Positions 24,213-40,860 of a DNA stretch of 64,000 nucleotides are shown in pieces. This DNA is from Mycolicibacterium tusciae JS617. Lineage in GTDB: Bacteria > Actinomycetota > Actinomycetes > Mycobacteriales > Mycobacteriaceae. Position 1 is the stretch's first letter, and the number at the start of each line of letters is the position of its first letter. The notes under the pieces are model-generated. The model was not told the DNA's origin. It searched no databases and worked only from the letters and a program-made list of their open reading frames with translations. The stretch spans positions 992,001 to 1,056,000 of the forward strand of contig NZ_KI912270.1 of the NCBI RefSeq assembly GCF_000243415.2, in the 5' to 3' direction. The position numbers were made by a program, and so were the translations under genes.

Positions 24213-25367
24213 TCACCCGTAGGCAAGTAGGAGTGGGACGTTCTGTTCTGCGGTTGTCAGCGATCCATGCTGGCCGATCAACGACGATTCGAGTGGTTCG
24301 GCCGTTCGTCTCAGCAAACCCACCGATGCGCGGGCCGCTGCGACGACATCGCCGATGCGGCGCCGGGTCTCGTCGCTCACACGATCGCCGAACCACCCCG
24401 CGGCGATCGCCTCGTCGCGCGATACCACCCACGCGCGATCTGCCAGCGTCGTCCGCCACGCGGCCAACACGTCGTTCTCCGCGCCGGGGGCTATATATAT
24501 GTGTCGAGCCCGAGCCTCGCCTCCGATATCGGTCACGCCATGGGTGAGCGCGTCGTGACTGTCGATATCGACGGCGTCCTTCGGATTTATAGAGACCATC
24601 CCGTGGTCGGCCACCACCGCGAGCATCCCGCCCGGCGGCAGGTCCTCGATGACCGATTGCACCAGACAGTCGATTTGGCGCAACTGCATCAGCCACGCGG
24701 TCGATCCGGGCCCATACAGGTGCCCCATCATGTCGAGCTCACTGTGGTACGCGTAGCAGAAACCACCGGCGGCGACCGCTTCACGCACCCGCGCCGACAG
24801 ATCTCCCAGTGCATGCACTCCGATGTACCGGCCGCCCCGAAGAACCGCACGCGTCATACCGGATCCGGTGAATTCAGCACCGGAGATGACGCTGACCGCC
24901 GCCCCTGCCGCAGCGGCCCGTTCGAACGTCGTCGGCATCGGCTGCACCTGCTCGGGCGGCGCCGCATCCCGCACGTCGGCGCCCCAGGGATGCATGCGCC
25001 ACCGCAAAGTGTTCACGACGCCGACGTCGGGGAGACGGAAGGAGTAACCGACGAGACCGTGCTCGCCGGAGCGGCACCCGGTACCCAGCGCGGCGAGCCC
25101 GGCGACCGTGGTGGCCGGGAAGCCGACATGCAGCGTGTGGCCGCGTAGACCGGCCATGACGGGTGCCTCGGAGGCATATTCGTCGAGCAACTCGGCGCCC
25201 AGACCATCGATCAACAGCACGCAGGCCCCCACCACGTCGTCACGCAGCGGAATTCGGCTGTCGAAGCCCTCGACACGCATCGCCGCCAAGACCGACGGCA
25301 CCACATCGGCCAGGTGGGGGGTGTCGGGATCCAGGTGTGGCAGGTCCACGGGCCGAGCCTGCCACAT
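24213..25367 (-). CDS. Alkaline-phosphatase-superfamily nucleotide pyrophosphatase/phosphodiesterase
   Basis: A 384-residue type I phosphodiesterase/nucleotide pyrophosphatase-like enzyme. The metal and nucleophile region is VLLIDGLGAELL with VGFPATTVAGLAALGTG, where Thr is the probable nucleophile. Further metal ligands are YHSELDMMGHLYGPGS and VVADHGMV. No signal peptide is seen, so it may be cytoplasmic. The substrate is unknown. It lies 18 bp downstream of the SRPBCC gene on the same strand and may share its transcript. Confidence 0.85.
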   Translation of the reverse strand: MWQARPVDLPHLDPDTPHLADVVPSVLAAMRVEGFDSRIPLRDDVVGACVLLIDGLGAELLDEYASEAPVMAGLRGHTLHVGFPATTVAGLAALGTGCRSGEHGLVGYSFRLPDVGVVNTLRWRMHPWGADVRDAAPPEQVQPMPTTFERAAAAGAAVSVISGAEFTGSGMTRAVLRGGRYIGVHALGDLSARVREAVAAGGFCYAYHSELDMMGHLYGPGSTAWLMQLRQIDCLVQSVIEDLPPGGMLAVVADHGMVSINPKDAVDIDSHDALTHGVTDIGGEARARHIYIAPGAENDVLAAWRTTLADRAWVVSRDEAIAAGWFGDRVSDETRRRIGDVVAAARASVGLLRRTAEPLESSLIGQHGSLTTAEQNVPLLLAYG

Positions 25368-25385
25368 CCGGTGAGAGCGACGGGG

Positions 25386-25778
25386 TCAGCCGGCTTCGAG
25401 TGTCTTCTTGATCGCCGCGATGCCAGCGTCCATCATTCCGCTCACATTCCCCGCGGCGTCGTCGGGCAGCAGGTCGGTGGTCCAGACGAAGCGACTGCCG
25501 TCGGGGTGGTCGAACACCTGCGCGGCGCCGTTGTAGTACTGGAACTGCTGCCCGATGATCGCCCAGACGACGCGTCGAGCGGCGTCGTCGACCGCAACGA
25601 TGTCTTCGCGCACGACCATGTCGTTGGCGAAGGTGACAACGCGTGCATTGCCTTCCATCTTCGTGCCGACGACGAAACCGGCGGCCAGCCGCGTGTGCAG
25701 AGCGCCGACATCGCGCAACGCCTCCCACACGAGATCGGGCGGCGCGAGGATCTCAATTTCCTTCTGAATGGTGGCCAT
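25386..25778 (-). CDS. SRPBCC-family (polyketide cyclase/START-like) protein
   Basis: About 130 residues from the ATG at 25778 (MATIQKEIEI). A longer start at 25859 would overlap the divergent giant gene. The SRPBCC pattern is clear: EIEILAPPDLVWEALRDVG at the start, the central GNARVVTFANDMVVRE strands and the long C-terminal helix DAGIAAIKKTLEAG. Such proteins bind hydrophobic ligands in a deep pocket. It is divergent from the giant regulator, 79 bp apart, and so shares its control region. Confidence 0.8.
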   Translation of the reverse strand: MATIQKEIEILAPPDLVWEALRDVGALHTRLAAGFVVGTKMEGNARVVTFANDMVVREDIVAVDDAARRVVWAIIGQQFQYYNGAAQVFDHPDGSRFVWTTDLLPDDAAGNVSGMMDAGIAAIKKTLEAG

Positions 25779-25857
25779 GGGGCCATCCTGGCGCACGCCA
25801 CCGACATCTTTACCAAACCTTGACCGCGTGCGGAATCGCCCGAATGACGATGGTGTC

Positions 25858-28800
25858 ATGACTACGCTTCAACGGGTGGAGCTGGGGGTTTTGGGACCTC
25901 TTCAGGTCCGGCAGTACGGCCTGCCGGTCTCGATCCCCGGCGCCAAACCCCGCGCAATCCTCACGATGCTCGGCCTCCACGGCGATTCGGTCGTATCGGC
26001 CGACACGCTCGTCGAACTCCTCTGGGGCGATGATCCGCCGCGCACCGTCGCCAAGGCTCTGCAGACCCACATCTCGTCGCTGCGTCGCGTCCTGGGCGAC
26101 GGCTTCGTGTTGACCGCAGGCACGGGGTGGACCCTGAGCACGACCGAGGTTGATGCCACCCGGTACAAGCTGGCCGCCAAGATGGGCCGCGCCGCTGCCG
26201 CCTCTGGCGACATCAGCCAGGCGGTGGTCCATTTCGACGAGGCGCTATCGCTCTGGCGCGGCATTCCGGAACTGCCCGATGGCCCACGCGGCGTACCAGA
26301 GAAGACGCGCTGGGTCGAAGGTCACGCCGCACTGGTGGAAGACCGAGCCGATGCGCTGCTTGCGACGGGTCGCGCTGCAGAGATCATTGGCGAACTGGAG
26401 GCCGCGATCGCCGATGCGCCGCTGCGCGAGAGGCGCTGGGGACAGCTGATGCTCGCCCTTTACCGCGCGGGAAGGCAGGGTGAAGCGCTCGCTGCCTATC
26501 AACGCGCACGGTCGCTGCTCGCCGACGAGTTGGGCGTCGACCCGGGACCGAGCCTACGCCGACTGGAAGCCGCGATCGTCTCCCAGGATGATGCACTCGA
26601 AATACCTGTGTCACAGCATCTTTCGACAGTCACGAAGGCGGTGACCTTCCTGCTCACCGACATCGAGGGGTCAACCGCCGCGTGGGAGGCCCAAGCCAAC
26701 GCCATGGCGGTGGCTCTCGCACGCCACGACGAGATCGTCGAGCAGGTCGTCACGTCCCGGGGAGGGCGGCTCATCAAGACCCGCGGCGAGGGTGATGCGA
26801 CGTTCTCGGTCTTCGACCGACCGTCGGGGGCGGCCGCCGCCGCGATCGAATTGCAGGAAGCGATCCGTCACGAACCGTGGGTGCTGTCGGAGCCGATGCG
26901 CATCCGAGTGGCACTGCACAGCGGCGAGGTTGAGTTGCGCGATGGCGACTACTTCGGCCGGGCGGTGAACCGTGCCGCGCGCCTGCGCTCGTTGGCCGCC
27001 GGCGGGCAGATCCTGTGTTCGGGCGCGACGGCAGAGCTCGTCATCGACACGCTTTCGGACGACGTCCTCCTTATCGATCTGGGATCGCGTCACCTGAAGA
27101 ATCTTGCTCGCCCCGAGCATGTGTTCGAACTGCGACTGGAGACCACCGAATACCCTTCTGCGTCCACCGCCGATGCACCACCGATGGAGCGCCCCGACCT
27201 GCCTGCGGTGCTCGCCGGACCAGGGCCGTTCGTCGGGCGCGTCTCCGAACTCGAACGACTTCTCGCCGGATGGCAACTAACACTCGATGCCGGCACGAGC
27301 GCTGTGCTGATCGCCGGCGAACCCGGCGTGGGCAAGACGCGGTTGGCCGGTGAATGGACACGGCAGGCCTACGAGCAGGGAGCCGTCGTTCTTTACGGCC
27401 GCTGTGACGAGGACCTCGGCGCGCCATACCAGCCATTCGCGGAGGCGTTGCGCTCGCTGGTGCCCTGCGTCGGCGCCAACCGGCTGCGCGGGTTGCGAGG
27501 AGTCGAAGCACTTCTTGCACTGGTTCCCGGATTGACCGAGGTGCTACCAGATCTGACAGCGCCATCCCGCGCCGACGCGGACACCGAGCGCTACGCGCTG
27601 TTCGACGCCGTCGTCGCGCTGCTGGGAATCGCCTCCGCGAGTGCACCTGTCGTGCTGGTTCTCGACGATCTCCACTGGGCGGCCAAGCCGACACTGCTGC
27701 TACTGCGGCATCTTCTGCGGTTCGGAGAGCACGCCCGTGTGCAGATCGTCGGGACGTACCGCAGCACCGACCTCGACCGCTCACACCCCCTGGCGGCGAT
27801 GCTCGCCGACCTGCACCGCAGTGCTGGTTCTGGCTCCGCGAATCGCATTCAGCTCAACGGCCTCGACGAGGACGACGTCACCGCCTATGTTGCCGAAGCC
27901 GGCTACGACGACGAGGAGCTTGCCCGCGCGTTGGCGTCGGTGACGGGCGGCAATCCGTTCTTCCTGATCGAGGCCCTGCGCCACGTGGACGAAAGCGGCG
28001 GCCATTGGGATCCGAGCACCCTGCCACAGGGCGTCCGGGAAGCGGTGAGCCGCAGGCTTTCTCGGCTCCCCGCGGAAACCAACAAGGCTCTTGCGGCGGC
28101 TGCGGTCGTCGGCAGCAGGTTTGCAGTCGACCTGGTCGAGCGTGTGGTCGGCGAAGACCTCGTCGACGCATTCGACCAAGCGTCCAAGGCCGGCATCGTC
28201 ATTGAAGAACCGGGCGGTCGTTACCGGTTCAACCACGCCATCGTCCGGCAGTCGCTGCTGGCCGAGTTGGCATCGGTGCGGCGCATGCGGCTGCATCAAC
28301 GGATCGCCGCGAGCCTCGAGGTGGAGCAGGGCGCGGACGATGAACTGCTCGCCGAATTGGCTTACCACTACTTCGAATGCGCGTGGGCGGGCAACGCGGC
28401 CAAGGCTGTCGACTACTGCCGACGCGCGGCGGATCAGGCGATGGCGCGCCTGGCGTACGAAGGCGCGGCCGACCTCTACGACAAGGCATTGCACGCTCTA
28501 GACGAACTCGACGACGACTTGCCCGACCGTACCGACCTGCAAGCCGAACTCTTGGTCGCTCGTTGTGAGGCGCTGCTGGCCGCAGGTGACGTGGGCTCAG
28601 CAGGAGGCGCGGTCTCGCAGTTACAAAACGCCGCAGCCGATTCCGCGCGACTAGCGGCCTGGGGTACATGCTTCGACGGTCAGCTGTCGATGCTCACCGA
28701 CCCCGAGCGGCTGGACGAAATCGAGACCGCGTTGGGCTCGGCGGCCGAGGAACTCGCCGGCCTTGACGACGCCGCAGGGGAGGCCAAGGCTCACACGGTT

Positions 28801-31800
28801 CGGGCCGGGTGCCTTGCCCGTCTCGGCCGGATCGGCGACTGCGAAACCGCGTTGGATCAAGCGCTTACTGCGGCACGACGTGCTGGCGAGCATCGCCGAG
28901 TGAACGCCGTGCTCGCGGGCGCTCCGCTGGCGGCTCTGTGGGGACCGAACCCGGTTCCGCGCGCGGGCGGGCGTTGTCTTGACGTCGTTCGGCTGCTTCG
29001 CATCACGACGGGATCACCGGTCGTGGAGGCGACGTCGACGCGGTGCCAGGGCGTACTGGATGCATTTCGAGGGCGTGCCGCCGCGGGTCGTCAGCTGATC
29101 GACTCTGCCAGGCGCTCACTGACCGAGCTGGGCATGCGGCACGCGCTACTCGAGGTTGAGCAATTTGCAGGCATCGTCGAAATGGTGGCCGACGATCCCG
29201 CTTCCGCCGAGCCGCATCTGCGGCGGGCCTACAACGGTTTTCGCCGTATGGGCCTGGAGGCGGACACGGCCGAGACCGCTGCGTTATTAGCTCGAGCGTG
29301 TCTCGCCCTCGGCAGAGATGCCGACGCCGACGAACTATGCACGGAGAGTGAGGATCTCTCTGGCCACGCGTTGAAGGCCTCGATCGCGTGGCGGACTGTT
29401 CGGGCGCAACTGCTGGCGCGCGGCGGTGCACATGACGAGGCGCGGCGGGTGGCCGCGGAGGCTGTCACGTGGGCGGAGCGCACCGACCTTTTGGTCGATC
29501 ACGGCGATGCCTGCCTCGCGATGGCGACGGTGTTGGACATCTCTGGCGATGCCGCAGGGGCGCGTGCCGCGGCCGAGAAGGCGGTCGGCCTCTACGAGCT
29601 GAAAGGGGCTGCGGCACTTGCGGAGAAGGCGCGCCGGCTCCTTGACGGCCGCGAAGTTCCGACCGCCGCGGCTCAACCCGACATACCCGTTGTGCAATTC
29701 GACAACGCGTGCGTACGAGCGCTCGCAAGGCTCAATGACGCAGCCGCCCGCGAGGCTTGGGACGAGGCAGAGCAGCTGTTTGCTTCGGACGTCTCGGTCG
29801 AGAGTCATCGGAAGATCGTCGGCTATCCGCGAATGGACCTTCCATCAGGCGAGTACTCGTACCAGATGAGCCACTTCCTGGAAACGGGCATCGTGAAATA
29901 CCAGTTCGTTCCCATCGCGGTGCATGGCGAACGTCTTGCCCTCACACGGCTGACGGTCGGCACTGCCGACCTGAGTTCCGGGGCGCCACAGGACGAAATG
30001 CTCCAGGTAGTCGGTGTCGACGAGCAGGGTCGGATCGCACTGCAGGTCGTGTTCGACATCGAAGACTTTGACGCCGCGATGGCCGAACTCGATGCGCAGC
30101 ACGCGCGGTTGAAAGACGCGCCTGCAGGTGTGACAGAAAACGAGTGTGTGCGTGTGCTTCGTGCGCTCGACGATGCCTACGACCGAGTGGCCTGGGACGA
30201 GGTCGAGCAGCACGTGGCGGCGGTCGTGTCAGTGGAGAGCCGTCGGCGGGTCGTTGGCCAAGTTCCCCACGATCTTCCCTTCAGCGAGTGGGCAGCTGAG
30301 GCAAAGCGATTTCGCGAAATGCTGGGCGCGGTGCGGTACCGCCACGACGTTGTCGCGATTCGAGGCGAGCGTGTGGCCCTCACCTCGCTGAAGGTGGGTC
30401 CCGACGATCAGAGTCCTGGCGCGCCGCGGGACGAGTTGCTTCAGTTATACGGCCTCAACCAGGAGGGCCGGATCGCGCTGCAGATCTGGTTCGACGTCGA
30501 TGACATGGACACCGCGATGGCCGAACTCGACGCCAGGCACGCCCGGCTCGACGGACCAAATTCGCGACCAGCGCTGGACAACTCCGCGAGTCGTGTTGAT
30601 CATCAGGTCAACACGCTCGTCGCCGACAGTCGCTGGGACGACATCGCCGCCCTGTTCATCGATGACATCCGACTAGACGATCGGCGGCGGGGCCTCAGCC
30701 GAGTGGACGCCGGCCGCGGCGAAGCCATTGCAGAGTTGAAGACCATCGCCGACCTCGGGGTGACGAACATCGCCTCGGATGTCATTGCAATCCGTGGAGA
30801 GCGTCTTGTTCTGGGGCGTGTCCGGGGCGAGAGCAGCGGCAGCGAGGCATATTTCGTCGAGCTACTTCGCATCGCTGAGATCGACGCCGACGGAAGAGTT
30901 GTGGGGTACGTGGCATTCGATCTCGACGACATCGACGCTGCAGTCGCAGAACTCGATGTCCGCTACCTCGCTGGCGAGGCCGGCCCTCACTCCCACACGT
31001 GGTCAGTCATGACACATGCCTACGCCGTCCTAAACCGGCGGGGACTGCCGGCAACGACGCCGGACTGGGTGAATGTAGACCATCGCCGGGGAACATCCTT
31101 CGCGCCCGGCGACATGACTGCGTACATCTCCGCCGCGTGGGCCGATCTCGAGCAGGACCTCCGCATCCACATCGAGGCTGTGCATCGGCTCAGCGACCGT
31201 GGAGCGGTCTTGACGCAGGTGCTGAAAGGGACGACGCACGAGCGCTTCGATGCCGAGTGGCGAACGATCAACCTCTATACGGTCGACGGCGCCCTGATCG
31301 ACCGCTGCGAGCTTTTCGAGGAGACAGACCTCGACGCCGCGCTCGCACGGTTCGACGAGCTCAGCCGGCCGGCGCCACAGCTGGAGAATGCTGCAAGCCA
31401 AGTGGACAAGCGCTTTCAGGCGTGCTTCGCCGCCCGCGACTGGGACGCAATGGCCGAGATACTGTCGGACGGCACCTCCATCGAAGATCGGCGCCGAGTC
31501 GTGAACGCGGGAAATCAACATGGTCGAGATGCCGAACTCACGGTGCATGCATACGCCGCTGTCGGATCCGAGAACGTGGCATCGACCGTCGTTGCGGTCC
31601 GTGGGCAGCGCCTCGCCCTAAGCCATTACCGGTTCTCGGGAGCCGACCGACGACCCGACGCATTCCGCATCGAGTTGCTCGCGGTCGCCGAGATCGATGC
31701 CGACGAGCGGATGGCGGCAGTCGTCGTGTTCGACCCCGAAGACATCGACGCCGCCTTCGCCGAGCTCGACGCCCGATACCTTGCCGGCGAAGCCGCCGAC

Positions 31801-34800
31801 TACGCGCGCACGTGGTCGGCCATCACCCAGGGGTATGCCGCAGCCAATCGCGGCGAACTTGCGGCGACGGCGCCGGACGTGGCGAACATCGACCACCGAC
31901 GAGTCGCGATGATCGAATCAGGCGAGTTAGTCCCGTATCTCCGCAATACGTTCGACGAGTTCGCGAACATCAGGACGTACCTGGAGGCTGTACATCGGGT
32001 GACCGACCTCGGCGCGGTCGTGACCCATGTGGGTGCCGGAACCTCCAAGGAGGGCTTCGACGCCGAGTGGCGGATGATCAACGTCATCGTGGTCGACGGC
32101 GACCTGATCAGTCGCAGCGAGACGTTCGAGGAGGGCGATCTCGACGCCGCGCTCGCGAAGTTCGACGAACTCAGCCGTCCGGCGCCACGGCTGGAAAACC
32201 CGGCCAGCCAACTGTGCGAGCGCTTCCTGGCGTCGTTCGGGGACCGCGACTGGGACGTCATAGCGGACCTGTTCGCCGAAGGCTATTGCCTTGAAGATCG
32301 TCGTCGAACTGTGAATTCGGGTGTGCGACGTGGTCGGGATGATGCGATCGAAGACATGCGCGCGGCCGTCGATGTCGGGTTGTGGGCGAATCTGTCGTCG
32401 GCCGTTATTGCGACCCGGGGCGACCGGCTTGCTCTCATGCATCTTCGTGCCTCGGGCCACGACCCGGAAGCGAGCCAACTCGATGTGCTTCAGGTTATCG
32501 AGACTGACGCCGACGAACGGTTCGCAGATGTGGCGGTGCTTGACGTCGAAGACGTCAACGCCGCGATCGCTGAACTCGACGCCCGATACCTCGCCGGCGA
32601 GGCGGCGCCGCACGCTCAAACAATGTCGGTCATCACGGATGTCTACACCGCACTCAACCGGCATGAGCTGTCGCCCACAACGGCGGATTGGGTCAACATC
32701 GATCACCGCCAGGGGGCACCGTTTGCGCCCGGCGACCTCATCGCATACCTCCGTGCGTCTTGGGATCAGGTTCCGGACATGAGCTTTCGCATCGAGGCGG
32801 TACATCGGCTGAGCGAGCTCGGAGCGGTCTTCACGCAGGTGATGAAAGGGACCTCACAGGAGGGCTTCGATGCAGAGTGGCGGTTGGTTGAGATCATGAC
32901 CGTCGAAGGCGACGTGGTAAGCCGCGCCGAGATATTCGACGAGGCCGACCTCGACGCTGCGCTCGCCAAGTTCGACGCACTCAATTGTCCGATGCCGCGA
33001 CTGGAGAATGCGGCGAGCCGAGTGTCCGACCATCTCCGCGCGTCCTTCGCGGCCCGCGACTGGGCCGCGATGGGTGACTTGCTGGCCGACGACTTTCACG
33101 GCGACGACCATCGCCCGCTGGTGAATGTCGATCTGCACGGTCCAGATGCGGTGGTCGAAAGCTTCCGAGCCGGTGCCGAATTGGGCATCCCAGATGCGAC
33201 GTCAATCGTCTATGCGATCCGTGGAGAACGGCTGGTCCTCGCTCGTGTTCGATACTCCGTCAGCGACACGGAGCCCGACGCGTTCAACGTAGATCTTCTA
33301 CAGATAGTCGAGATCGACGGCGACGAGCGGATTGCGGGGATGGTCACGTTCGACATCGACGACATCGACGCCGCCTTTGCCGAGCTCGACGCTCGCTTCG
33401 TCGCTCGCGAGGCGGCCCCGCATGCGCAGACATGGTCGGTCATCGTGGGGAATGTCGCGGCCTTTAACAAGCACGAGCCCCCGGCCTGGACGCCCAACGT
33501 GGTGAACGTCGACCACCGGAGGGTGACAGCCGTCGCGCCAGGTGACAAAGCCGCGTACATCCGGGCGACATGGGACCAAACGCCGGACGTGAGGATTCAC
33601 ATCGAGGCGGCGCATCGATTGAATGACCTCGGCGCAGTCGTCACTTACCACACGAGCGGTACCTCGCTACAGGGCTTCGGGGCCGAGTGGCGTGGGATTG
33701 CCGTCTCGACGATCGACGGCGGTCGGATCAACCGTAGCGAGCTTTTCGACGAGGCAGACCTCGACGCCGCGCTTGCGCGGTTCGACGAACTCAGTCGGCC
33801 GGTGCCACGGCTGGAGAATGCGGCGAGCCAAATGTACGACCGCTTCCTAGCGCACTTCGCGGCCCATGAATGGGACGCTCTGGCAGGGATTCTCGCTGTG
33901 GACATGCTCCATGACGATCGCCGTGGATTGGGCGCCGGAATCCGATACGGCCGAGATGCTGAGATTGAAAATGTCCGGGCGACCGCGGGTCTCGGTTCGA
34001 TCAACGCAATATCGACCGTCATCGCGACCCGAGGGGAGCGCCTAGCCCTCACTCGCAATCGCTTCTCCATCGAAGAGCAAGGGGTCGACGCGTTCCAGTT
34101 GGAGGTGCTCGGCATCGTCGAGATCAACGCAGACAACATGATCGCGACGCGGGTGGGGTTTGACCTCGACGACATCGACGCTGCGTTCGAGGAACTCGAT
34201 TCACGTTATGCCGCAGGCGAAGCCGCGCCCTACGCAAACACCTGGTCGGTCATCATGGGGGCCTATGCCGCCTTCAATCGGCGCGAGCCCTTGCCAACGA
34301 CGCCGGGCTGGGTGAACGTCGACCACCGGCGCGGGACAACTGTCGCTTCCGGCGACTTGAAAGCATTTATCCGCGCCGCCTGGGACGACACGCCTGACGC
34401 ACGAATCTACATCCAGGCCGTACACCGGCTGAGTGAAATCGGTGCGGTCACAACCGGCGCATCGCAAGGGACGTCACGAGAAGGCTTCGACGCGGAGTGG
34501 CGGGAGATCGCTGTTACGACAGTCGACGACAACAAGGTCAGCCGCTCCGAACTCTTCGACGAGGCAGACCTCGATGCCGCGCGTGCCAGGTTCGACGAAC
34601 TCAGCCGGCCGGTGCCGCGGTTGGAAAACACCGCAACCAAGGTGGAAGAACGCTTCCAGGCGTACTTCGCGGCCCGCGACTGGGCTGCAATGGGCCAGGT
34701 GCTGGCCGACGAAATTTTCGCAGACGATCGTCGCCGGGTAGTGAACGCCGGTATTCGACACGGTCGAGACGCCAAAATCGCGGACATGCGGGCGACCGCC

Positions 34801-37800
34801 GACCTCGGGACCAAGAACGGGACATCGACCGTGGTCGCCATCCGCGGCCAACGTCTCGCCCTGGTGCGTATCCGCCTCTCGGGGAGAGACCATCGGCCGG
34901 ATGCTTTCCACACCGAGATGCTCGGCATCGTCGAGATCAGCGCCGATAGCCGGATGGCAATCCGCATACTTTTCGACGTCGACGACATCGATGCCGCCTT
35001 CGCGGAGCTCGATGCCCGCTACCTGGCCGGCGAAGGCGCCCCGCATGCCCGCACGTGGTCGGTAATCGCGGAGGCCTACGCCGCGTTCAACCGGCGCGAG
35101 CTCGCCGCGACGACGCCAGACTGGGTCAACATTGACCACCGTCGTGGAGCAGCATTCGCCCCCGGTGACTTCATCGCGTATATCCGAGCCGCGTGGGACG
35201 ACTCGCCTGACACAAAGAGCCATATCGCAGCGGTGCATCGACTGAGCAAGCTCGGCGCGGTCGTTACCGATGTGACGCAAGGGATCTCACAAGTGGGTTT
35301 CGACGCCGAGTGGCGGGAGATCCACTTGCTGACGGTGGATGGCGAAATGCTCAGCCGCTCCGAGCTGTTCGACGAGGCGGACCTGGACACAGCGCTCGCA
35401 AGATTCGACGAACTCAATCGGCCGATGCCACGGCTGGAGAACGCAGCGAGCCGCCTGGAAGCACGCTGCCAGGCCCTCATCACAGTCGCGGACTGGAACG
35501 CGATGGCTGGCCTGATGTCCGACGACATCTCAATCGATGATCGTCGTCGCGTGGTAAACGCTGGCCTTCGGCACGGTCGAGACGTCGTTATCGAAGATCT
35601 GCGGGTTGGTAAGGAGATCGGTCTTACTCGAGTCACCCCGACCGCGATTGCGACCCGTGGCGAGCTCCTTACGCTGCGCCATATTCACTATGGGGCCGAC
35701 GACCAACGCCCCGAGGGGGCGCAGATTGATCTTGTTCAGATCGTTGAGGTCGGTCTAGACGACCGGATCAGGTCGATCGTCCTGTTCGATATGGATGACA
35801 TCGATGATGCGTTCAAGGAACTCGAGACTCGGTACCTCACCGGGGAAGCGGCAGCTCATGCGCGAACGTGGTCCGTCATCGCGCAGACATTCGCCGCATT
35901 CAACCGACGCGAGCATTTCGCGACCGACTGGGCCTTTTTCGATCACCGACGACACACCCCCTTCGCGCCCAGCGTTCTTGCCGCATCCATGCATGCCGTG
36001 CGGGACCTCACCCCGGACCTAAAAATCTATTTGGACACCGTGCATCGGCTTAGCGATCACGGAGCGGTCGTCGCAAATACGTCGCACGGGACTTCGCCCG
36101 AAGGCTTTGACGCCGAGTGGCAGATGATTCAACTTCTTACTGTCGACGGCGACCAAATCAACCGCTGTGAGCTATTCGATGAGGCAGACCTCGACGCCGC
36201 ACTCGCGAGATTCGATGAACTCAGTTGTCCGACTGGGCGGCTCGAAAACGCGGTGAGCCGAACGTACGAGCGCTTGTTGACACATTTCGCGGCCCGCGAC
36301 TGGGCAGCCATGGCCGAAATACTAGCCCCAGACGTATTCGGCGACGATCGTCGTCGAGTCGTGAATGCTGGCGTCCAGCATGGTCGCGATGCCCTAATCG
36401 CGAGCATGCAGGCGACCGCTGAGGTCGGGGTCGAGAGCATGACGCCAACCGTCATCACGACGCGTGGGGAGCGCCTCGCCCTCACCTGCGTCCGTTCGTC
36501 TGTCCGCCGCGGTGAATTCACCGCCGACGTACTCAGCATCGTCGAGATTGACGCCGACAACCGGATCGCAGCGGGCGTCGTGTTCGACCCCGCTGACCTC
36601 GACTCTGCGTTCGAGGAGCTCGATGCGCGATACCTCGCTGGCGAAGCGGCCGATTATGCGCACACATGGTCGGTAATGGCGCAGGCCTTTGCCGCAACTA
36701 ACAGGCGCGAAATTCCCGAGTTCACACCGGACTTCGTGAGCATCGATCACCGGCGAGCAAGAGCGTTCGCGCCCGGCGACCTGACCGCATACATACGTGC
36801 CACGTGGGACCTCGCGCCGGACGTGATCGCCTACGCCGAGGCTGTGCATCGGCTGAGCAACTTTGGGGCGGTCTTCACTCAGGCGGTCAACGGGACGTCG
36901 CAACACGGGTTCGAGGCCGAATGGCGCGAGATTTGCGTTGCAACTATCGAGGGCGACCGGATCAACCGCATCGAGCTATTCGACGAGACAGACCTCGACG
37001 CCGCGCTCGCGCGCTTCGACGAACTACACGCGCACACACCGCGGTTGGAAAGCGCGGCAAACCAGGTAGTCGAGCGCTTCAACGCGTACTTTGCGAACCG
37101 CAATTGGGACGCCATGGCGGAGTTGCTGGTCGACGACTTCGCGAGCGACGACCGTCGTCGTGTGGTGAACAGCGGTGTCCGAAGAGGGCGAGGCGGCGAG
37201 ATCACAAGCTCTCAGGCGATGGCCGAGCTCGGGGGCGTGAGCATTACGTCGATCCCGATTGCGACACGGGGAAAGCACCTCGTCCTTAGTCATTTCTGTG
37301 CCTCGGCCGACGACCAACTCCAAACCGAGGGCATCGGCGTCATCGAGATCAACACCGACAACGAAATCGTGGCACGCGTCATGTTCGACCCCAATGACCT
37401 CGACGCCGCCTTCGAGGAGCTCGACGCCCGGTACCTCGCGGGTGAAGCAGCGGCGCACTCGCGTACGTGGTCAGCGCTAGCCCGTGGCTACGCTGCGATC
37501 AACCGACAAGAGCTGGCGTCGACTACGTTGAACTGGGTCAGCATCGACCACCGCCGGGGGACAGCGTTCGCGCCGGGCGACCTTGCCGCATACCTTCGTG
37601 CCGGCAGAGACCTCACTGTGCGAGCTGCGATCTACATCGAGGCGGTGCACCGGCTGACCAACCGGGGCGCTGTCGTCAGCCATAGGGTATATGCGACTTC
37701 GTACGGGGGGTTCGACGCCGAATGGCGAGAGATCATCATCGTGATGTTCGAAGGTGACCTCATTAACCGCTGCGAGCTATTCGAGGAGGCAGACCTCGAC

Positions 37801-38655
37801 GTTGCGCTCGCGACGTTCCATGAACTCAGCGCGTCGGCATCGCTGCTGGAGAATGCAGTAACGGCGGTCCTCGCCCGCGTGGTGGACGCTTTCAACCGTC
37901 GCGACATCGACAGCTATCTTTCCCTTTTCGACGACGACGGCCGATACGAGGATCGGCGAAAAGGGCTGCGTGACGTGGGGCCAATCAAGCCGGACTACGC
38001 GCGCGCGATAGTCCTTGAGGCGGGTACGGGTTGGCAGGAAGAAATCGAATGCATCGCCGTCAGGGGAACGCATCTGCTCTTATGCCGCGCGATGTTCCGC
38101 GACCACAGCGAAGTCGACCGTCCGGTTGTTGTAGAGGCTTTGGTTCTCGCTGAAGTCACCGACGGCGGATTGATCTCTGCCTTCGTGATTTTCGATCCCG
38201 ACGACATCAACGGGGCCTTCGCTGAGCTCACCAATCGGTGGATCGCATCGGGAGAGGTCGAGCACCCAGAGGTCATCGAGGCCATGAGCCGGCTTTTCGA
38301 GTGCGCCAACCGCCATGATTGGGACGGGCTCGCCGCAATTGAAGCCGACGCCGCCTACGTGAATCACCGACAGTTGGCGACTGGAGACGAAATTGCCGAC
38401 CACTGGTCGTCACTCCGCATGATGGCCTCGCTGATCCCCGACCTACGCGTGGTGGTCGCCGACGTCCCCGTGTACTCCGCCATTGGCGTCGTGACCAACA
38501 TCGTCGTCAAGGGCTCGACAGTCGAGGGTGCCGAAATCGAGCTACCGGCCGTGATCATCCTCGTCTTCAACGGGTCCCACCTCACGCGCATGGAGGCCTT
38601 CGATCTCGACCAACGCGATCAGGCACTCGCTCGCTTCGACGAGCTCAACGGTTAG
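25858..38655 (+). CDS. Giant SARP-cyclase-STAND ATPase regulator with 22 NTF2-like modules
   Basis: A 4265-residue protein from the ATG at 25858 (MTTLQRVELGVLG). The order is: SARP-type winged helix (about 5-97), BTAD (about 98-245), class III nucleotide cyclase (about 258-425), STAND ATPase (about 460-760), TPR-like helices (about 800-1270), then 22 SnoaL/NTF2-like modules (1283-4265). The cyclase keeps Asp268 (TDIEGST), Lys307, Asp313, Asp364, Asn371 and Arg375, so cAMP synthesis is possible. The ATPase has Walker A GEPGVGKT (487-494) and Walker B VLDDLHW (around 602-606). Related mycobacterial regulators (the Rv0386/Rv1358/Rv2488c group) combine cyclase and ATPase with LuxR domains and have no such tail. 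The module array replaces the usual sensor. Codons late in the array end in A/T more often than in neighbours. The target genes and ligand are unknown. Confidence 0.9.
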   Translation: MTTLQRVELGVLGPLQVRQYGLPVSIPGAKPRAILTMLGLHGDSVVSADTLVELLWGDDPPRTVAKALQTHISSLRRVLGDGFVLTAGTGWTLSTTEVDATRYKLAAKMGRAAAASGDISQAVVHFDEALSLWRGIPELPDGPRGVPEKTRWVEGHAALVEDRADALLATGRAAEIIGELEAAIADAPLRERRWGQLMLALYRAGRQGEALAAYQRARSLLADELGVDPGPSLRRLEAAIVSQDDALEIPVSQHLSTVTKAVTFLLTDIEGSTAAWEAQANAMAVALARHDEIVEQVVTSRGGRLIKTRGEGDATFSVFDRPSGAAAAAIELQEAIRHEPWVLSEPMRIRVALHSGEVELRDGDYFGRAVNRAARLRSLAAGGQILCSGATAELVIDTLSDDVLLIDLGSRHLKNLARPEHVFELRLETTEYPSASTADAPPMERPDLPAVLAGPGPFVGRVSELERLLAGWQLTLDAGTSAVLIAGEPGVGKTRLAGEWTRQAYEQGAVVLYGRCDEDLGAPYQPFAEALRSLVPCVGANRLRGLRGVEALLALVPGLTEVLPDLTAPSRADADTERYALFDAVVALLGIASASAPVVLVLDDLHWAAKPTLLLLRHLLRFGEHARVQIVGTYRSTDLDRSHPLAAMLADLHRSAGSGSANRIQLNGLDEDDVTAYVAEAGYDDEELARALASVTGGNPFFLIEALRHVDESGGHWDPSTLPQGVREAVSRRLSRLPAETNKALAAAAVVGSRFAVDLVERVVGEDLVDAFDQASKAGIVIEEPGGRYRFNHAIVRQSLLAELASVRRMRLHQRIAASLEVEQGADDELLAELAYHYFECAWAGNAAKAVDYCRRAADQAMARLAYEGAADLYDKALHALDELDDDLPDRTDLQAELLVARCEALLAAGDVGSAGGAVSQLQNAAADSARLAAWGTCFDGQLSMLTDPERLDEIETALGSAAEELAGLDDAAGEAKAHTVRAGCLARLGRIGDCETALDQALTAARRAGEHRRVNAVLAGAPLAALWGPNPVPRAGGRCLDVVRLLRITTGSPVVEATSTRCQGVLDAFRGRAAAGRQLIDSARRSLTELGMRHALLEVEQFAGIVEMVADDPASAEPHLRRAYNGFRRMGLEADTAETAALLARACLALGRDADADELCTESEDLSGHALKASIAWRTVRAQLLARGGAHDEARRVAAEAVTWAERTDLLVDHGDACLAMATVLDISGDAAGARAAAEKAVGLYELKGAAALAEKARRLLDGREVPTAAAQPDIPVVQFDNACVRALARLNDAAAREAWDEAEQLFASDVSVESHRKIVGYPRMDLPSGEYSYQMSHFLETGIVKYQFVPIAVHGERLALTRLTVGTADLSSGAPQDEMLQVVGVDEQGRIALQVVFDIEDFDAAMAELDAQHARLKDAPAGVTENECVRVLRALDDAYDRVAWDEVEQHVAAVVSVESRRRVVGQVPHDLPFSEWAAEAKRFREMLGAVRYRHDVVAIRGERVALTSLKVGPDDQSPGAPRDELLQLYGLNQEGRIALQIWFDVDDMDTAMAELDARHARLDGPNSRPALDNSASRVDHQVNTLVADSRWDDIAALFIDDIRLDDRRRGLSRVDAGRGEAIAELKTIADLGVTNIASDVIAIRGERLVLGRVRGESSGSEAYFVELLRIAEIDADGRVVGYVAFDLDDIDAAVAELDVRYLAGEAGPHSHTWSVMTHAYAVLNRRGLPATTPDWVNVDHRRGTSFAPGDMTAYISAAWADLEQDLRIHIEAVHRLSDRGAVLTQVLKGTTHERFDAEWRTINLYTVDGALIDRCELFEETDLDAALARFDELSRPAPQLENAASQVDKRFQACFAARDWDAMAEILSDGTSIEDRRRVVNAGNQHGRDAELTVHAYAAVGSENVASTVVAVRGQRLALSHYRFSGADRRPDAFRIELLAVAEIDADERMAAVVVFDPEDIDAAFAELDARYLAGEAADYARTWSAITQGYAAANRGELAATAPDVANIDHRRVAMIESGELVPYLRNTFDEFANIRTYLEAVHRVTDLGAVVTHVGAGTSKEGFDAEWRMINVIVVDGDLISRSETFEEGDLDAALAKFDELSRPAPRLENPASQLCERFLASFGDRDWDVIADLFAEGYCLEDRRRTVNSGVRRGRDDAIEDMRAAVDVGLWANLSSAVIATRGDRLALMHLRASGHDPEASQLDVLQVIETDADERFADVAVLDVEDVNAAIAELDARYLAGEAAPHAQTMSVITDVYTALNRHELSPTTADWVNIDHRQGAPFAPGDLIAYLRASWDQVPDMSFRIEAVHRLSELGAVFTQVMKGTSQEGFDAEWRLVEIMTVEGDVVSRAEIFDEADLDAALAKFDALNCPMPRLENAASRVSDHLRASFAARDWAAMGDLLADDFHGDDHRPLVNVDLHGPDAVVESFRAGAELGIPDATSIVYAIRGERLVLARVRYSVSDTEPDAFNVDLLQIVEIDGDERIAGMVTFDIDDIDAAFAELDARFVAREAAPHAQTWSVIVGNVAAFNKHEPPAWTPNVVNVDHRRVTAVAPGDKAAYIRATWDQTPDVRIHIEAAHRLNDLGAVVTYHTSGTSLQGFGAEWRGIAVSTIDGGRINRSELFDEADLDAALARFDELSRPVPRLENAASQMYDRFLAHFAAHEWDALAGILAVDMLHDDRRGLGAGIRYGRDAEIENVRATAGLGSINAISTVIATRGERLALTRNRFSIEEQGVDAFQLEVLGIVEINADNMIATRVGFDLDDIDAAFEELDSRYAAGEAAPYANTWSVIMGAYAAFNRREPLPTTPGWVNVDHRRGTTVASGDLKAFIRAAWDDTPDARIYIQAVHRLSEIGAVTTGASQGTSREGFDAEWREIAVTTVDDNKVSRSELFDEADLDAARARFDELSRPVPRLENTATKVEERFQAYFAARDWAAMGQVLADEIFADDRRRVVNAGIRHGRDAKIADMRATADLGTKNGTSTVVAIRGQRLALVRIRLSGRDHRPDAFHTEMLGIVEISADSRMAIRILFDVDDIDAAFAELDARYLAGEGAPHARTWSVIAEAYAAFNRRELAATTPDWVNIDHRRGAAFAPGDFIAYIRAAWDDSPDTKSHIAAVHRLSKLGAVVTDVTQGISQVGFDAEWREIHLLTVDGEMLSRSELFDEADLDTALARFDELNRPMPRLENAASRLEARCQALITVADWNAMAGLMSDDISIDDRRRVVNAGLRHGRDVVIEDLRVGKEIGLTRVTPTAIATRGELLTLRHIHYGADDQRPEGAQIDLVQIVEVGLDDRIRSIVLFDMDDIDDAFKELETRYLTGEAAAHARTWSVIAQTFAAFNRREHFATDWAFFDHRRHTPFAPSVLAASMHAVRDLTPDLKIYLDTVHRLSDHGAVVANTSHGTSPEGFDAEWQMIQLLTVDGDQINRCELFDEADLDAALARFDELSCPTGRLENAVSRTYERLLTHFAARDWAAMAEILAPDVFGDDRRRVVNAGVQHGRDALIASMQATAEVGVESMTPTVITTRGERLALTCVRSSVRRGEFTADVLSIVEIDADNRIAAGVVFDPADLDSAFEELDARYLAGEAADYAHTWSVMAQAFAATNRREIPEFTPDFVSIDHRRARAFAPGDLTAYIRATWDLAPDVIAYAEAVHRLSNFGAVFTQAVNGTSQHGFEAEWREICVATIEGDRINRIELFDETDLDAALARFDELHAHTPRLESAANQVVERFNAYFANRNWDAMAELLVDDFASDDRRRVVNSGVRRGRGGEITSSQAMAELGGVSITSIPIATRGKHLVLSHFCASADDQLQTEGIGVIEINTDNEIVARVMFDPNDLDAAFEELDARYLAGEAAAHSRTWSALARGYAAINRQELASTTLNWVSIDHRRGTAFAPGDLAAYLRAGRDLTVRAAIYIEAVHRLTNRGAVVSHRVYATSYGGFDAEWREIIIVMFEGDLINRCELFEEADLDVALATFHELSASASLLENAVTAVLARVVDAFNRRDIDSYLSLFDDDGRYEDRRKGLRDVGPIKPDYARAIVLEAGTGWQEEIECIAVRGTHLLLCRAMFRDHSEVDRPVVVEALVLAEVTDGGLISAFVIFDPDDINGAFAELTNRWIASGEVEHPEVIEAMSRLFECANRHDWDGLAAIEADAAYVNHRQLATGDEIADHWSSLRMMASLIPDLRVVVADVPVYSAIGVVTNIVVKGSTVEGAEIELPAVIILVFNGSHLTRMEAFDLDQRDQALARFDELNG
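29704..38652 (+). repeat. Tandem NTF2-like module array (2 singles + 10 double units of about 810 bp)
   Basis: Unit boundaries fall at the recurring Leu-Glu-Asn-Ala junction: singles 29704-30138 and 30139-30579; doubles starting at 30580, 31387, 32197, 33007, 33817, 34627, 35440, 36247, 37051 and 37852, each 267-271 codons. A modules (about 130 aa) carry DDRRRVVN, AIRGERLAL and FDDIDAAFAELDARYLAGEA-like motifs. B modules (about 138 aa) carry VNIDHRRGTAFAPGDL, EAVHRLS..GAV, GFDAEWR and ELFDEADLDAALARFDEL. The last unit is the most divergent and lacks the HRR motif. The end-of-unit DNA is strongly conserved between copies. Confidence 0.9.
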
Positions 38656-38694: not shown

Positions 38695-39954
38695 TTAGTT
38701 GACGGTCGGTGGTTTTGGTTGGAAGGGGTCGTACCACTTCCACTGGGCGTGTTCGCCGAGGGGTCCGCGGTAGGGGGCCACGTCGGGTGGGGGTCGATTC
38801 GGTGGTCGGGCAAGCGATCCGGCGCTGAGTTCTTGGCCGTCACTGTCGGTGACAGTGAGGTTCTCGGGTGGTCCGGTGATGGTAATGACGCCGCGGTGAT
38901 GCAGCCGGTGATGGTAAGGACAGAGCAGCACCAGGTTGTGCAGTTCGGTGGGCCCGCCGTCTTCCCAATGGTCAATGTGGTGGGCGTGCAAACCGCGGGT
39001 GGCCCCGCAACCGGGCACCGCACACGTGGGGTGGCGAAACTCCAGCGCACGACGCAACCGACGGTTGATCGTGCGGGTGCTGCGCCCGGCGCCGATGGGT
39101 TGCCCGTCGCGGTGAAACCACACCTCGCAGGTGGCGTCACACGTCAGGTATCGGCGCTCAGCGTCGGACAGCAGCGGCCCCAGATGCAACCCTGCGACAC
39201 GGTCTTTGACGTCCAGGTGCACCACCACGGTGGTGCGCTGCCCGTGGGGCCGACGGACCGCGTCAGCGTCCCACCCAGCTTCGACCAGACTCATGAACGC
39301 ATCACCGGTGGTCGGCAACGGCGGCGAGAACTCTGCGCAGTGGTCGCCGTTGTCATGGTCACGTTTCCACTCGGCGATCAACGCATCCAGATGTGACTGC
39401 AAGGCCGCATCGAAGGTGGCCGCGTCCACCGGGCCCAGTTTGATCTTCCAGGTGGTGGACTGCTCGTCGCTGGTCTTGGTGACCGAACGTTCCGGCACCG
39501 GGTCGGCGTAGGGGTCGGGTTCGGGTTCGGGGCGCGGTTCCAGCTTGAGTGCGGTGTTGAGTTGGTTGACGGTGGCGACTTCGGCCAGCGCCACGTAGTG
39601 CTCATCAGATCCGGTGGCGGCTTTCTCGGCGATGATGCCGACCTGATCCAGGGACAGTCGCCCTTCGCGCAGGCCGGCCACGCAGCGCGGAAACTCGGGC
39701 AGCCGGTGGGCGATGGTGGCGATCTTGTGGGCATTTCGCTCCGAGCTTCCGGTCTTCCACGCCACCAGCGCCGCCACTGACCGGGCACCGGTGATCCCGA
39801 CCAGATTGCCGTGATCCATCTCGGCCACGATGTCCACGATGCGCCCATCGATGGCATTGCGCTGACCCATCAACTCACCCAGCTCGCCGAACAACACCTC
39901 CAAACGGTCCTTCGGACGCACCACCGGAGCATCAAGTGAGGCGGTCGAAGACAT
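38695..39954 (-). CDS. DUF222 / HNH endonuclease (13E12 repeat family)
   Basis: About 419 residues from the ATG at 39954 (MSSTASLDAP). Longer starts overlap the divergent ArsR gene. Residues about 15-150 are the DUF222 region. The C-terminal HNH domain reads HPTCAVPGCGATRGLHAHHI, then DHWEDGGPT and the CPYHHRLHH zinc/HNH block. These proteins are multi-copy in mycobacteria (REP13E12) and serve as targets for phiRv1-type integration; their biochemical role is unclear. No terminal repeats or integrase are next to it. It converges on the giant gene, 39 bp apart. Confidence 0.85.
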   Translation of the reverse strand: MSSTASLDAPVVRPKDRLEVLFGELGELMGQRNAIDGRIVDIVAEMDHGNLVGITGARSVAALVAWKTGSSERNAHKIATIAHRLPEFPRCVAGLREGRLSLDQVGIIAEKAATGSDEHYVALAEVATVNQLNTALKLEPRPEPEPDPYADPVPERSVTKTSDEQSTTWKIKLGPVDAATFDAALQSHLDALIAEWKRDHDNGDHCAEFSPPLPTTGDAFMSLVEAGWDADAVRRPHGQRTTVVVHLDVKDRVAGLHLGPLLSDAERRYLTCDATCEVWFHRDGQPIGAGRSTRTINRRLRRALEFRHPTCAVPGCGATRGLHAHHIDHWEDGGPTELHNLVLLCPYHHRLHHRGVITITGPPENLTVTDSDGQELSAGSLARPPNRPPPDVAPYRGPLGEHAQWKWYDPFQPKPPTVN

Positions 39955-40011
39955 AACCCCATCAAAACAGAAGGGTCCGACAGATTTTGGCCTGCGGAAC
40001 GCGCCCGACCA

Positions 40012-40041
40012 TTGACATGCAGCCGCAAGGCTGCCTATGGT
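40012..40041 (+). promoter_or_regulatory. Promoter of the ArsR-DUF899 operon
   Basis: TTGACA (40012-40017) and TATGGT (40036-40041) are separated by 18 bp, giving a good housekeeping-type promoter about 35 bp before the ArsR start. The first ArsR operator copy lies in the spacer. Confidence 0.6.
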
Positions 40042-40066
40042 GGATATGCAGCCAGGCAGCTGCATA
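40017..40066. promoter_or_regulatory. Duplicated ArsR operator ATGCAGC-N6-GCTGC
   Basis: Copy one (40017-40036) is ATGCAGC-N6-GCTGCCT. Copy two (40045-40066) is the perfect dyad TATGCAGC-N6-GCTGCATA. The copies are 29 bp apart, nearly three helical turns, on one face of the DNA. They overlap the promoter and the leader of the ArsR gene, so autorepression is the natural reading. Confidence 0.7.
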
Positions 40067-40074
40067 AATCGGTT

Positions 40075-40860
40075 ATGACAGAGACAAATGAGGTATTCAA
40101 AGCGCTGGCAGACCCCAGTCGGCGCCTGCTGCTCGACAGCCTCAACGCACGCACCGGGCAGACTCTGCGCGATCTTTGCGCGGAGCTTTCGATGGCGCGG
40201 CAGTCGGTCAGCAAGCACCTTGCGGTGCTGGAGGCGGCCAACCTCGTCACGACGGTGTGGCGGGGGAGAGAAAAGCTGCACTACCTCAACGCCGAACCGA
40301 TCAATGCCATCGCCGACCGCTGGATCAATCAATACGACCGCGCGCGAGTACAGACGCTCGCCGACCTCAAAACAGCATTGGAGACCGAACCGATGAGCAA
40401 TAGCGCCGATTTCGTCTACACGACCTACATCCGCACTACACCCGAAAAGCTATGGCAGGCCATCACCGACCCGGCATTCTCAAACCGCTACATGGGCCAC
40501 GCCGTCGTCTCGGACTTCGAGAAGGGGTCGACGTATGTGTGGCAGGACTGCAGCGGCCTCGAGATCGAAAGCTCGGATCAGGTAATCCTCGAGTCGGAGC
40601 CGTATCGCAGGCTCGCGTTCACTTTTCACACCTTCGTGCCCGAACTCAGCTCACTGGGCCTCGATGCGGACGTCATCGCCAAAGCCGCGACCGAACGGCG
40701 ATCCAAGGTGTCCTTCGATATCGAGCCGGTCGACGATGGCCAGGTGAAGCTGACCGTCGTCCATGATGACTTCCCGCCGGAAAGCACTGTGCGCGGACTG
40801 ATCTCCGGTGGTTGGCCGTGGAAGTTGTCGAACCTCAAGACTGCCCTGGAAGAGTCGTGA
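40075..40860 (+). CDS. ArsR-type HTH fused to an SRPBCC (AHSA1-like) domain
   Basis: A 261-residue fusion starting at the ATG at 40075. Residues about 1-95 form an ArsR winged helix (FKALADPSRRLLLDSL, MARQSVSKHLAVLEAANLV) without obvious metal-binding cysteines. Residues about 104-261 are an SRPBCC/AHSA1-like ligand domain (YIRTTPEKLWQAITDPAFS, GGWPWKLSNLKTALEES). The fused pocket probably senses a small organic ligand. The stop overlaps the GTG of the next gene (GTGA), so it heads an operon with two DUF899 genes. Confidence 0.85.
   Translation: MTETNEVFKALADPSRRLLLDSLNARTGQTLRDLCAELSMARQSVSKHLAVLEAANLVTTVWRGREKLHYLNAEPINAIADRWINQYDRARVQTLADLKTALETEPMSNSADFVYTTYIRTTPEKLWQAITDPAFSNRYMGHAVVSDFEKGSTYVWQDCSGLEIESSDQVILESEPYRRLAFTFHTFVPELSSLGLDADVIAKAATERRSKVSFDIEPVDDGQVKLTVVHDDFPPESTVRGLISGGWPWKLSNLKTALEES

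Follow-up and report, generated by a model that had tools for sequence, protein, structure and literature searches.

What a bacterium might do with twenty-two NTF2-like modules set end to end behind a signalling protein, and how such an array comes to be built, are the questions raised by a 12.8 kb gene of Mycolicibacterium tusciae JS617. The gene runs from 25858 to 38655 on the forward strand of the window, by which is meant the whole stretch of 64,000 nucleotides analysed here, and encodes 4265 residues; an ATG at 25768 offers a possible alternative start, and relatives are mostly homologous from residue 1. A preliminary description, written from the letters alone, had recognised the long frame as a SARP, BTAD, class III cyclase and STAND ATPase protein ending in 22 modules of NTF2-like or SnoaL fold. 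The existence of this long gene and its array is confirmed, and domain matches bear out the list of domains.

Domain organisation of the window protein

The first 240 residues (25858..26577, forward strand) form a SARP-type N-terminus recognised by Pfam-type domain matches, in which an OmpR-like winged helix (Trans_reg_C, 30.5 bits with a cut-off of 26.2) is followed by a BTAD domain (131 bits), and for which these matches predict DNA binding. A class III nucleotide cyclase domain lies at residues ~253-435 (26614..27162, forward strand; Guanylate_cyc, 35.2 bits), its closest solved counterpart by sequence being Ma1120 (E 3.6e-19), from whose alignment the register of the catalytic residues was taken. 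Class III cyclases employ two metal aspartates, a substrate lysine and aspartate, and a transition-state asparagine and arginine. As D268, K307, D364, N371 and R375 are invariant in all 74 aligned N-termini (the window gene and 73 relatives), their conservation argues for a functional cyclase; the second metal aspartate, however, is a glutamate (E311) in every one of the 74, so that the competent cyclase proposed at the outset is best called plausible but unproved.

The STAND-type ATPase that follows (27226..28347, forward strand) contains an AAA_16 domain at residues 457-629 (91.4 bits), with a Walker A motif of GEPGVGKT and a Walker B motif with D603 and D604; the GxxGxGKT consensus and the D603-D604 pair are invariant in 74 of 74 N-termini, and the C-terminal limit of the ATPase probably falls near residue 830. 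Behind it stands a C-terminal repeat of the superstructure-forming kind, a TPR superhelix at residues ~831-1262 (28348..29643, forward strand), supported by a TPR_12 match across residues 831-1281 (4.2e-7), by matches in the PDB and by a structure model of residues 831-1425 (pLDDT 83.5) in which 22 TPR-length helices lead, through a linker of low confidence, into the first NTF2-like module. Foldseek searches with the TPR region returned TPR-type proteins such as LGN, Rap and domain III of MalT. The proposal that NTF2-like modules stand in for the customary STAND repeat is therefore not supported, some 22 TPR-type helices being interposed between ATPase and array; the modules are an extension of a protein that already has its full SARP-cyclase-STAND-TPR complement. 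SARP/AfsR-type regulators have a winged helix, BTAD, STAND ATPase and TPR in that order, which is also the order found here, but the window protein has a class III cyclase between BTAD and ATPase and 22 NTF2-like modules after the TPR. It falls well short of the AfsR equivalog NCBIfam NF053617, scoring 152 bits with a cut-off of 1430. Across 14 pairs of relatives, some with a common member, omega in the N-terminus was 0.07-0.15, and the SARP, cyclase, STAND and TPR regions are conserved and under purifying selection.

The array itself opens with two initial modules, I1 and I2 (29710..30570, forward strand), which have no Pfam match of their own and of which I1 was modelled. Nine A-B pairs, A1B1 to A9B9, occupy 30571..37842, and a divergent terminal pair, A10-B10, with 13-34% identity to the remaining modules, completes the count of 22 at 37843..38652, all on the forward strand. 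A comparison of B10 with PDB sequences gave as its best match a DNA ligase (E 0.00055), taken as chance.

Relatives, array length and distribution

Among 204 related loci were 173 frames with a full N-terminus, 140 of them distinct and 126 complete between stops, the window gene itself standing outside this last set. The complete relatives encode 1485-5484 aa and carry 2-31 modules (median 13), a range whose low end is unsafe because a stop or a frame change has broken some genes into fragments that count as short entries. The pattern I*(AB)n, with a final lone A permitted, holds in 110 of the 126, and the array thus varies in length and mostly keeps strict alternation of A and B. The longest arrays, in L082 (41 modules) and L076 (42), both end at the edge of the available DNA, and the whole proteins would exceed 6797 and 5548 residues respectively. 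Four loci (L077, L079, L090 and L120) have arrays in two overlapping frames, through either sequencing errors in the repeats or real breaks.

In any draft genome there is the possibility that repeats are misassembled, and the preliminary description had itself considered that the long frame might be an artefact joining copies, a suspicion to which relatives read in two frames (L077, L090 and L120) might lend some colour. Yet there are 126 complete relatives, several on single multi-megabase contigs, and misassembly does not make new modules with strongly diverged silent sites; on the strength of these relatives and of the single-module replacements described below, an assembly artefact was rejected, being scarcely credible.

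Estimates of how widely the gene is distributed depend on the sample and on the part of the gene used as query. Of 326 mycobacterial genomes of the genus, 134 (~41%) contain the N-terminal DNA, which another count placed in 22 of 100 relatives. The array was found in 23 of 60 genomes of the genus (weak paralogue matches counted), in 16 of 301 genomes of a family sample at E <= 1e-10, all within one of 31 genera, and in 15 of 394 genomes of a class sample at E <= 1e-4, with one weak match (3.5e-5) outside the genus. A search of contigs with an A-B pair recovered at least 72 loci among its best 80 matches, all with mycobacterial titles apart from three contigs of one MAG labelled only Actinomycetota; no record of the M. 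tuberculosis complex occurred among these 72 named loci, whose titles identify the genus sampled as Mycobacterium in the broad sense. Five plasmid records were matched, none of them covering 80% of the N-terminus at a single site. Six genomes (G007, G036, G291, G1139, G1144 and G1163) each hold two genes of the SARP-cyclase-STAND-NTF2 family, and it is possible that second copies of this kind act as local donors of modules. At L130, two giant genes of the family stand in tandem in one genome (1678-18110).

A sister family of actinobacterial proteins (L055, L056, L057, L152 and L153) likewise joins cyclase, STAND, TPR and NTF2-like modules, but has a zinc ribbon, as read from the sequence, in place of the SARP part. 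L055-L057 are 33-34% identical to the window protein over residues 246-1257 and have 5-10 recognisable NTF2-like modules, which resemble those of the window only distantly (28% in the best segments). The sister-family tail was found in 7 of 396 genomes of the phylum, six of them from the mycobacterial genus; the family occurs in a few mycobacterial genomes and, more distantly, in another family, with L152 lying outside the mycobacteria. Between L055 and L153, N-terminal windows are 73-95% identical and the tail is 49-75% identical with gaps; the tails of this family may turn over too.

Replacement of single modules and their source

The N-termini of relatives are ~78-89% identical to that of the window protein, and most modules lack a near equivalent in other species. 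When modules were compared by best match at any position with an M. tusciae relative (N-termini 89% identical), 5 of the 20 A and B modules had a best match of 76-85% and the other 15 one of 45-65%. Closer pairs reveal how such differences arise. L033 and L108 have N-termini 99.5% identical and 13 modules each, the eighth of which (A7) is only 49% identical against 95-100% for the other 12; nucleotide identity drops from near 100% to 53-68% across A7 and is restored at the end of the module. In a second pair, L038 and L170 (N-termini 96.9% identical), 21 modules align with 21, two at 53 and 55% and the remaining 19 at 74-99%.

The same pattern extends to a survey of 24 non-overlapping pairs with N-termini at least 92% identical and at least nine modules each. 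Their 321 aligned A and B modules comprise 167 that are at least 75% identical, 98 below 60% and 56 between, an intermediate class because of which kept and replaced modules are not cleanly separate; ~182 further modules fell in gaps, some from cut loci. Sixteen single-module replacements flanked by kept modules were found in 12 of the 24 pairs, one of them distinguishing L172 from L182, on contigs of 6.09 and 5.96 Mb. On average, identity shifts within ~15 codons of the module ends in an ungapped comparison. Close relatives thus differ by the substitution of single modules, each exchanged for a remote relative of its own type, and the edges of the exchange lie close to module boundaries.

Replacement could reflect import or fast change in place, and the silent sites bear on the choice. 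The median silent-site difference was 0.58 in modules below 60% identity (107 modules), compared with 0.27 in kept modules (180, initial modules included in both counts) and 0.26 in the N-termini of the 24 pairs. Exchanged modules greatly exceed their surroundings in silent divergence, a sign of import rather than of rapid mutation on the spot. It also disfavours the view that a vertically inherited module was changed quickly by selection on its amino acids; the divergence of the replaced modules long predates that of the strains. A match of at least 70% in a third genome was found for 22 of 32 replaced alleles, the other 10 having none elsewhere in the set.

Two sources within the genome seem poorly suited to supply such modules. 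Firstly, recent tandem duplication should leave close neighbours, and so the rarity of these counts against it: in 98 proteins, with the initial modules and last two left out, adjacent pairs of the same type were at least 75% identical in 1/517 cases for A and 1/510 for B, and within-array pairs in 3/2001 and 1/1969. Growth by recent tandem duplication as the main mode was accordingly rejected. Median identity within arrays was 45.7% for A and 50.4% for B, scarcely different from the 44.4% and 49.6% between arrays (4000 random draws, N-termini below 88% identical). Secondly, in the genome of the window a single array was found, with no other stock of modules, which makes an archive of silent cassettes an unlikely source there. 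The simplest supposition is that modules come from other mycobacteria, whose DNA would recombine through the conserved ends. Best matches lay within the same protein for 15/703 A and 15/702 B modules, a share set aside as proof of exchange, a random draw from a pool giving a similar one; the even lengths of indels were likewise set aside as separate evidence, being largely forced by A/B alternation and A-to-A matching.

One must also consider whether this turnover means anything, for the array may be a flexible spacer or scaffold whose modules are shuffled by neutral recombination between similar repeats. Repeats do recombine readily, and omega in kept modules lies above that of the N-terminus. 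It nevertheless remains at 0.15-0.32 in all but one of 14 pairs (the exception, at 0.48 and with few changes, being the pair with 99.5% identical N-termini), signifying persistent purifying selection, and neutral unequal crossing-over should yield the near-identical neighbours that are so rare here, so that a mere spacer appears distinctly improbable. Nor did whole-module omega in the 14 pairs give any sign of positive selection in kept modules, whose low values mean that no diversifying selection is shown within modules.

A candidate recognition repertoire

The modules have the cone-shaped alpha+beta fold, with a bent sheet under helices, that had been supposed from the start, and their best structural matches are Rv0760c with a steroid ligand, ketosteroid isomerases and the epoxide hydrolases Lsd19 and MonB. 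Ketosteroid isomerase, Rv0760c and Lsd19 are single or double domains without a switch domain; each shares its fold with every module, and the place of isomerase Asp38 is kept in A modules. Columns 10, 14, 83, 85, 87, 98, 103, 116 and 118 of A modules are highly varied (3.2-3.8 bits), mixing hydrophobic, small and polar residues. Because varied and kept columns alternate along strands 4-6 (mean entropy 3.02 vs 1.40, 2.84 vs 1.70 and 3.25 vs 1.62), one face of the sheet varies in A modules; in B modules the alternation is present in strands 5 and 6 (2.28 vs 1.64 and 2.16 vs 0.82), weak in strand 4 and absent in strand 3. The varied face is likely to be a ligand pocket, as judged from the alignments. 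For a comparison with known contacts, Asp38, which we take to be a contact of ketosteroid isomerase, was added to a published list. Entropy at the 12 contact positions that could be mapped averaged 2.56 against 2.0 (P 0.019), although the mapping is weak and unreliable past column 38; one position was unmapped, and the invariant positions 38 and 39 were set aside, so excluding the kept motif. The list itself comprises the 14 contact residues named in the available part of PMC8028329.

Such pockets may be suited to diverse small hydrophobic molecules, for instance sterols, polyketides or lipids of the habitat or of competitors, and the array would then be a wide-ranging chemical sensor adapted to the niche of its host. 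The best structural matches are small-molecule NTF2 folds and the residues of the variable A columns are appropriately mixed, but the catalytic set of ketosteroid isomerase is not kept, the pocket mapping is weak and a shared fold proves no ligand; a sensor of this kind is possible rather than probable. Asp38 is the catalytic base of ketosteroid isomerase, and in A modules an aspartate stands at its place (D37, kept like R39 in 98% of 1095 distinct A modules), as it might if the modules were active enzymes of SnoaL or ketosteroid isomerase type working in series. Of the Tyr14/Asp38/Asp99 set, however, A modules retain only the place of Asp38; those of Tyr14 and Asp99 (columns 13 and 103) are variable, in a register uncertain past column 38, and fusion to a STAND switch speaks for sensing, which leaves enzymes in series highly improbable. 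More than 90% of the modules of each type, A and B, have a D-[RH]-R motif at the Asp38 place though much of the rest varies, the alignment of B modules to ketosteroid isomerase having been made by eye.

The reading preferred here is that the protein is probably a cytoplasmic STAND signalling switch whose tail serves as a modular recognition repertoire. Ligands would differ from module to module and be bound within or close to the pockets; binding would free the STAND ATPase to oligomerise, and oligomerisation might pair cyclase domains to make cAMP and cluster SARP domains on promoters. Ligand, coupling and outputs are suggested by the families to which the domains belong. Replacement modules would arrive from other mycobacterial arrays by homologous recombination through conserved module ends, and each strain would then hold its own sample of a genus-wide pool. 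More tentatively, the whole may amount to a combinatorial intracellular receptor, in which a non-redundant library of NTF2-type domains drawn from that pool is renewed laterally, module by module, and feeds one STAND switch acting on cAMP and promoters, with neither silent cassettes nor a diversity-generating enzyme. The preliminary description is upheld in its list of domains, its count of 22 and its NTF2 fold; the evolution of the modules favours its notion of a repertoire for many ligands, and it is set aside where it had the array substitute for the STAND repeat.

Of patterns already described, the closest is that of fungal NLRs, whose repeat tails vary (PMC4986451). The HNWD family of Podospora anserina likewise couples a STAND switch to a variable repeat tail, with polymorphism in repeat number and exchange of repeats between genes, according to PMC4986451; its repeats are highly alike within a protein through concerted evolution and have positively selected sites, whereas the mycobacterial modules are unlike one another (medians ~46-50%), far from the more than 85% within-protein identity of concerted repeats. 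Here number polymorphism (2-31 modules in the 126 relatives) and exchange (the 16 single replacements) are seen between species or strains rather than in one population, the units replaced are single globular domains of ~133 aa, and the output is a cyclase and a transcription factor.

By analogy, and in keeping with the defence role that the preliminary description thought conceivable, the modules may recognise variable non-self proteins, such as phage proteins or the toxins of rivals, in the manner of NLRs or polyimmunity proteins and with a protective output. A constant switch with a reassorted tail recalls the fungal NLR repeats (PMC4986451), and the accessible text of PMC3482391 records NTF2-fold immunity domains, tandem polyimmunity proteins with up to 10 distinct and varied immunity domains per protein and, together with that of PMC9484751, recombination among tandem immunity paralogues, while mentioning no STAND-cyclase fusion in the polyimmunity proteins. 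The locus itself offers little encouragement. PADLOC returned one 16-bit match (E 0.0014) around the P-loop (residues 479-513), with no single stretch passing, and with an A-B pair gave no match; no known defence family was found among the nine neighbouring proteins scanned, on whose families a defence island was rejected. Seven of these have Pfam matches (YaaA, phosphodiesterase, Polyketide_cyc2, DUF222/HNH, DUF899, beta-lactamase-fold and glutamine amidotransferase) and two have none at 1e-5. The outputs of the protein, moreover, look regulatory rather than lethal, and non-self recognition is a less likely prospect than chemical sensing.

As for the flanks in general, each flanking gene of the window recurs in at most 8 of 99 related loci, many of which have little flank. 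Divergently upstream (24213-25859) lie a type I phosphodiesterase/nucleotide pyrophosphatase, present in 8 of the 99, and a Polyketide_cyc2 (SRPBCC) protein, present in one; directly downstream on the other strand (38695-40332) is a DUF222-HNH endonuclease gene, with a similar gene in four.

As the preliminary description supposed, no characterised protein of SARP-cyclase-STAND-NTF2-array architecture was found in the open-licence literature, as judged by title or the start of the abstract. In the accessible portion of the cyclase survey PMC2447327, nothing was found on BTAD, TPR or repeats; the conflict-system paper PMC7159879 mentions cNMP cyclases and, as a ligand-binding domain, NTF2, in architectures unlike the present one, and neither SnoaL nor SARP is named in its main text. 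STAND receptors with variable tails are already known, and the one described here would add a swappable array of globular domains. Such receptors serve plants, animals and fungi in immunity and in telling self from non-self; in this bacterial family the unit of exchange is a single entire globular domain rather than a short repeat, behind a conserved output half that can be assayed. The family offers a way to test what is recognised by such a tail, and whether bacteria build a recognition repertoire through lateral exchange of modules, and it may add an unrecognised pathway of cAMP and transcription to ~41% of the sampled genomes of the genus (134/326).
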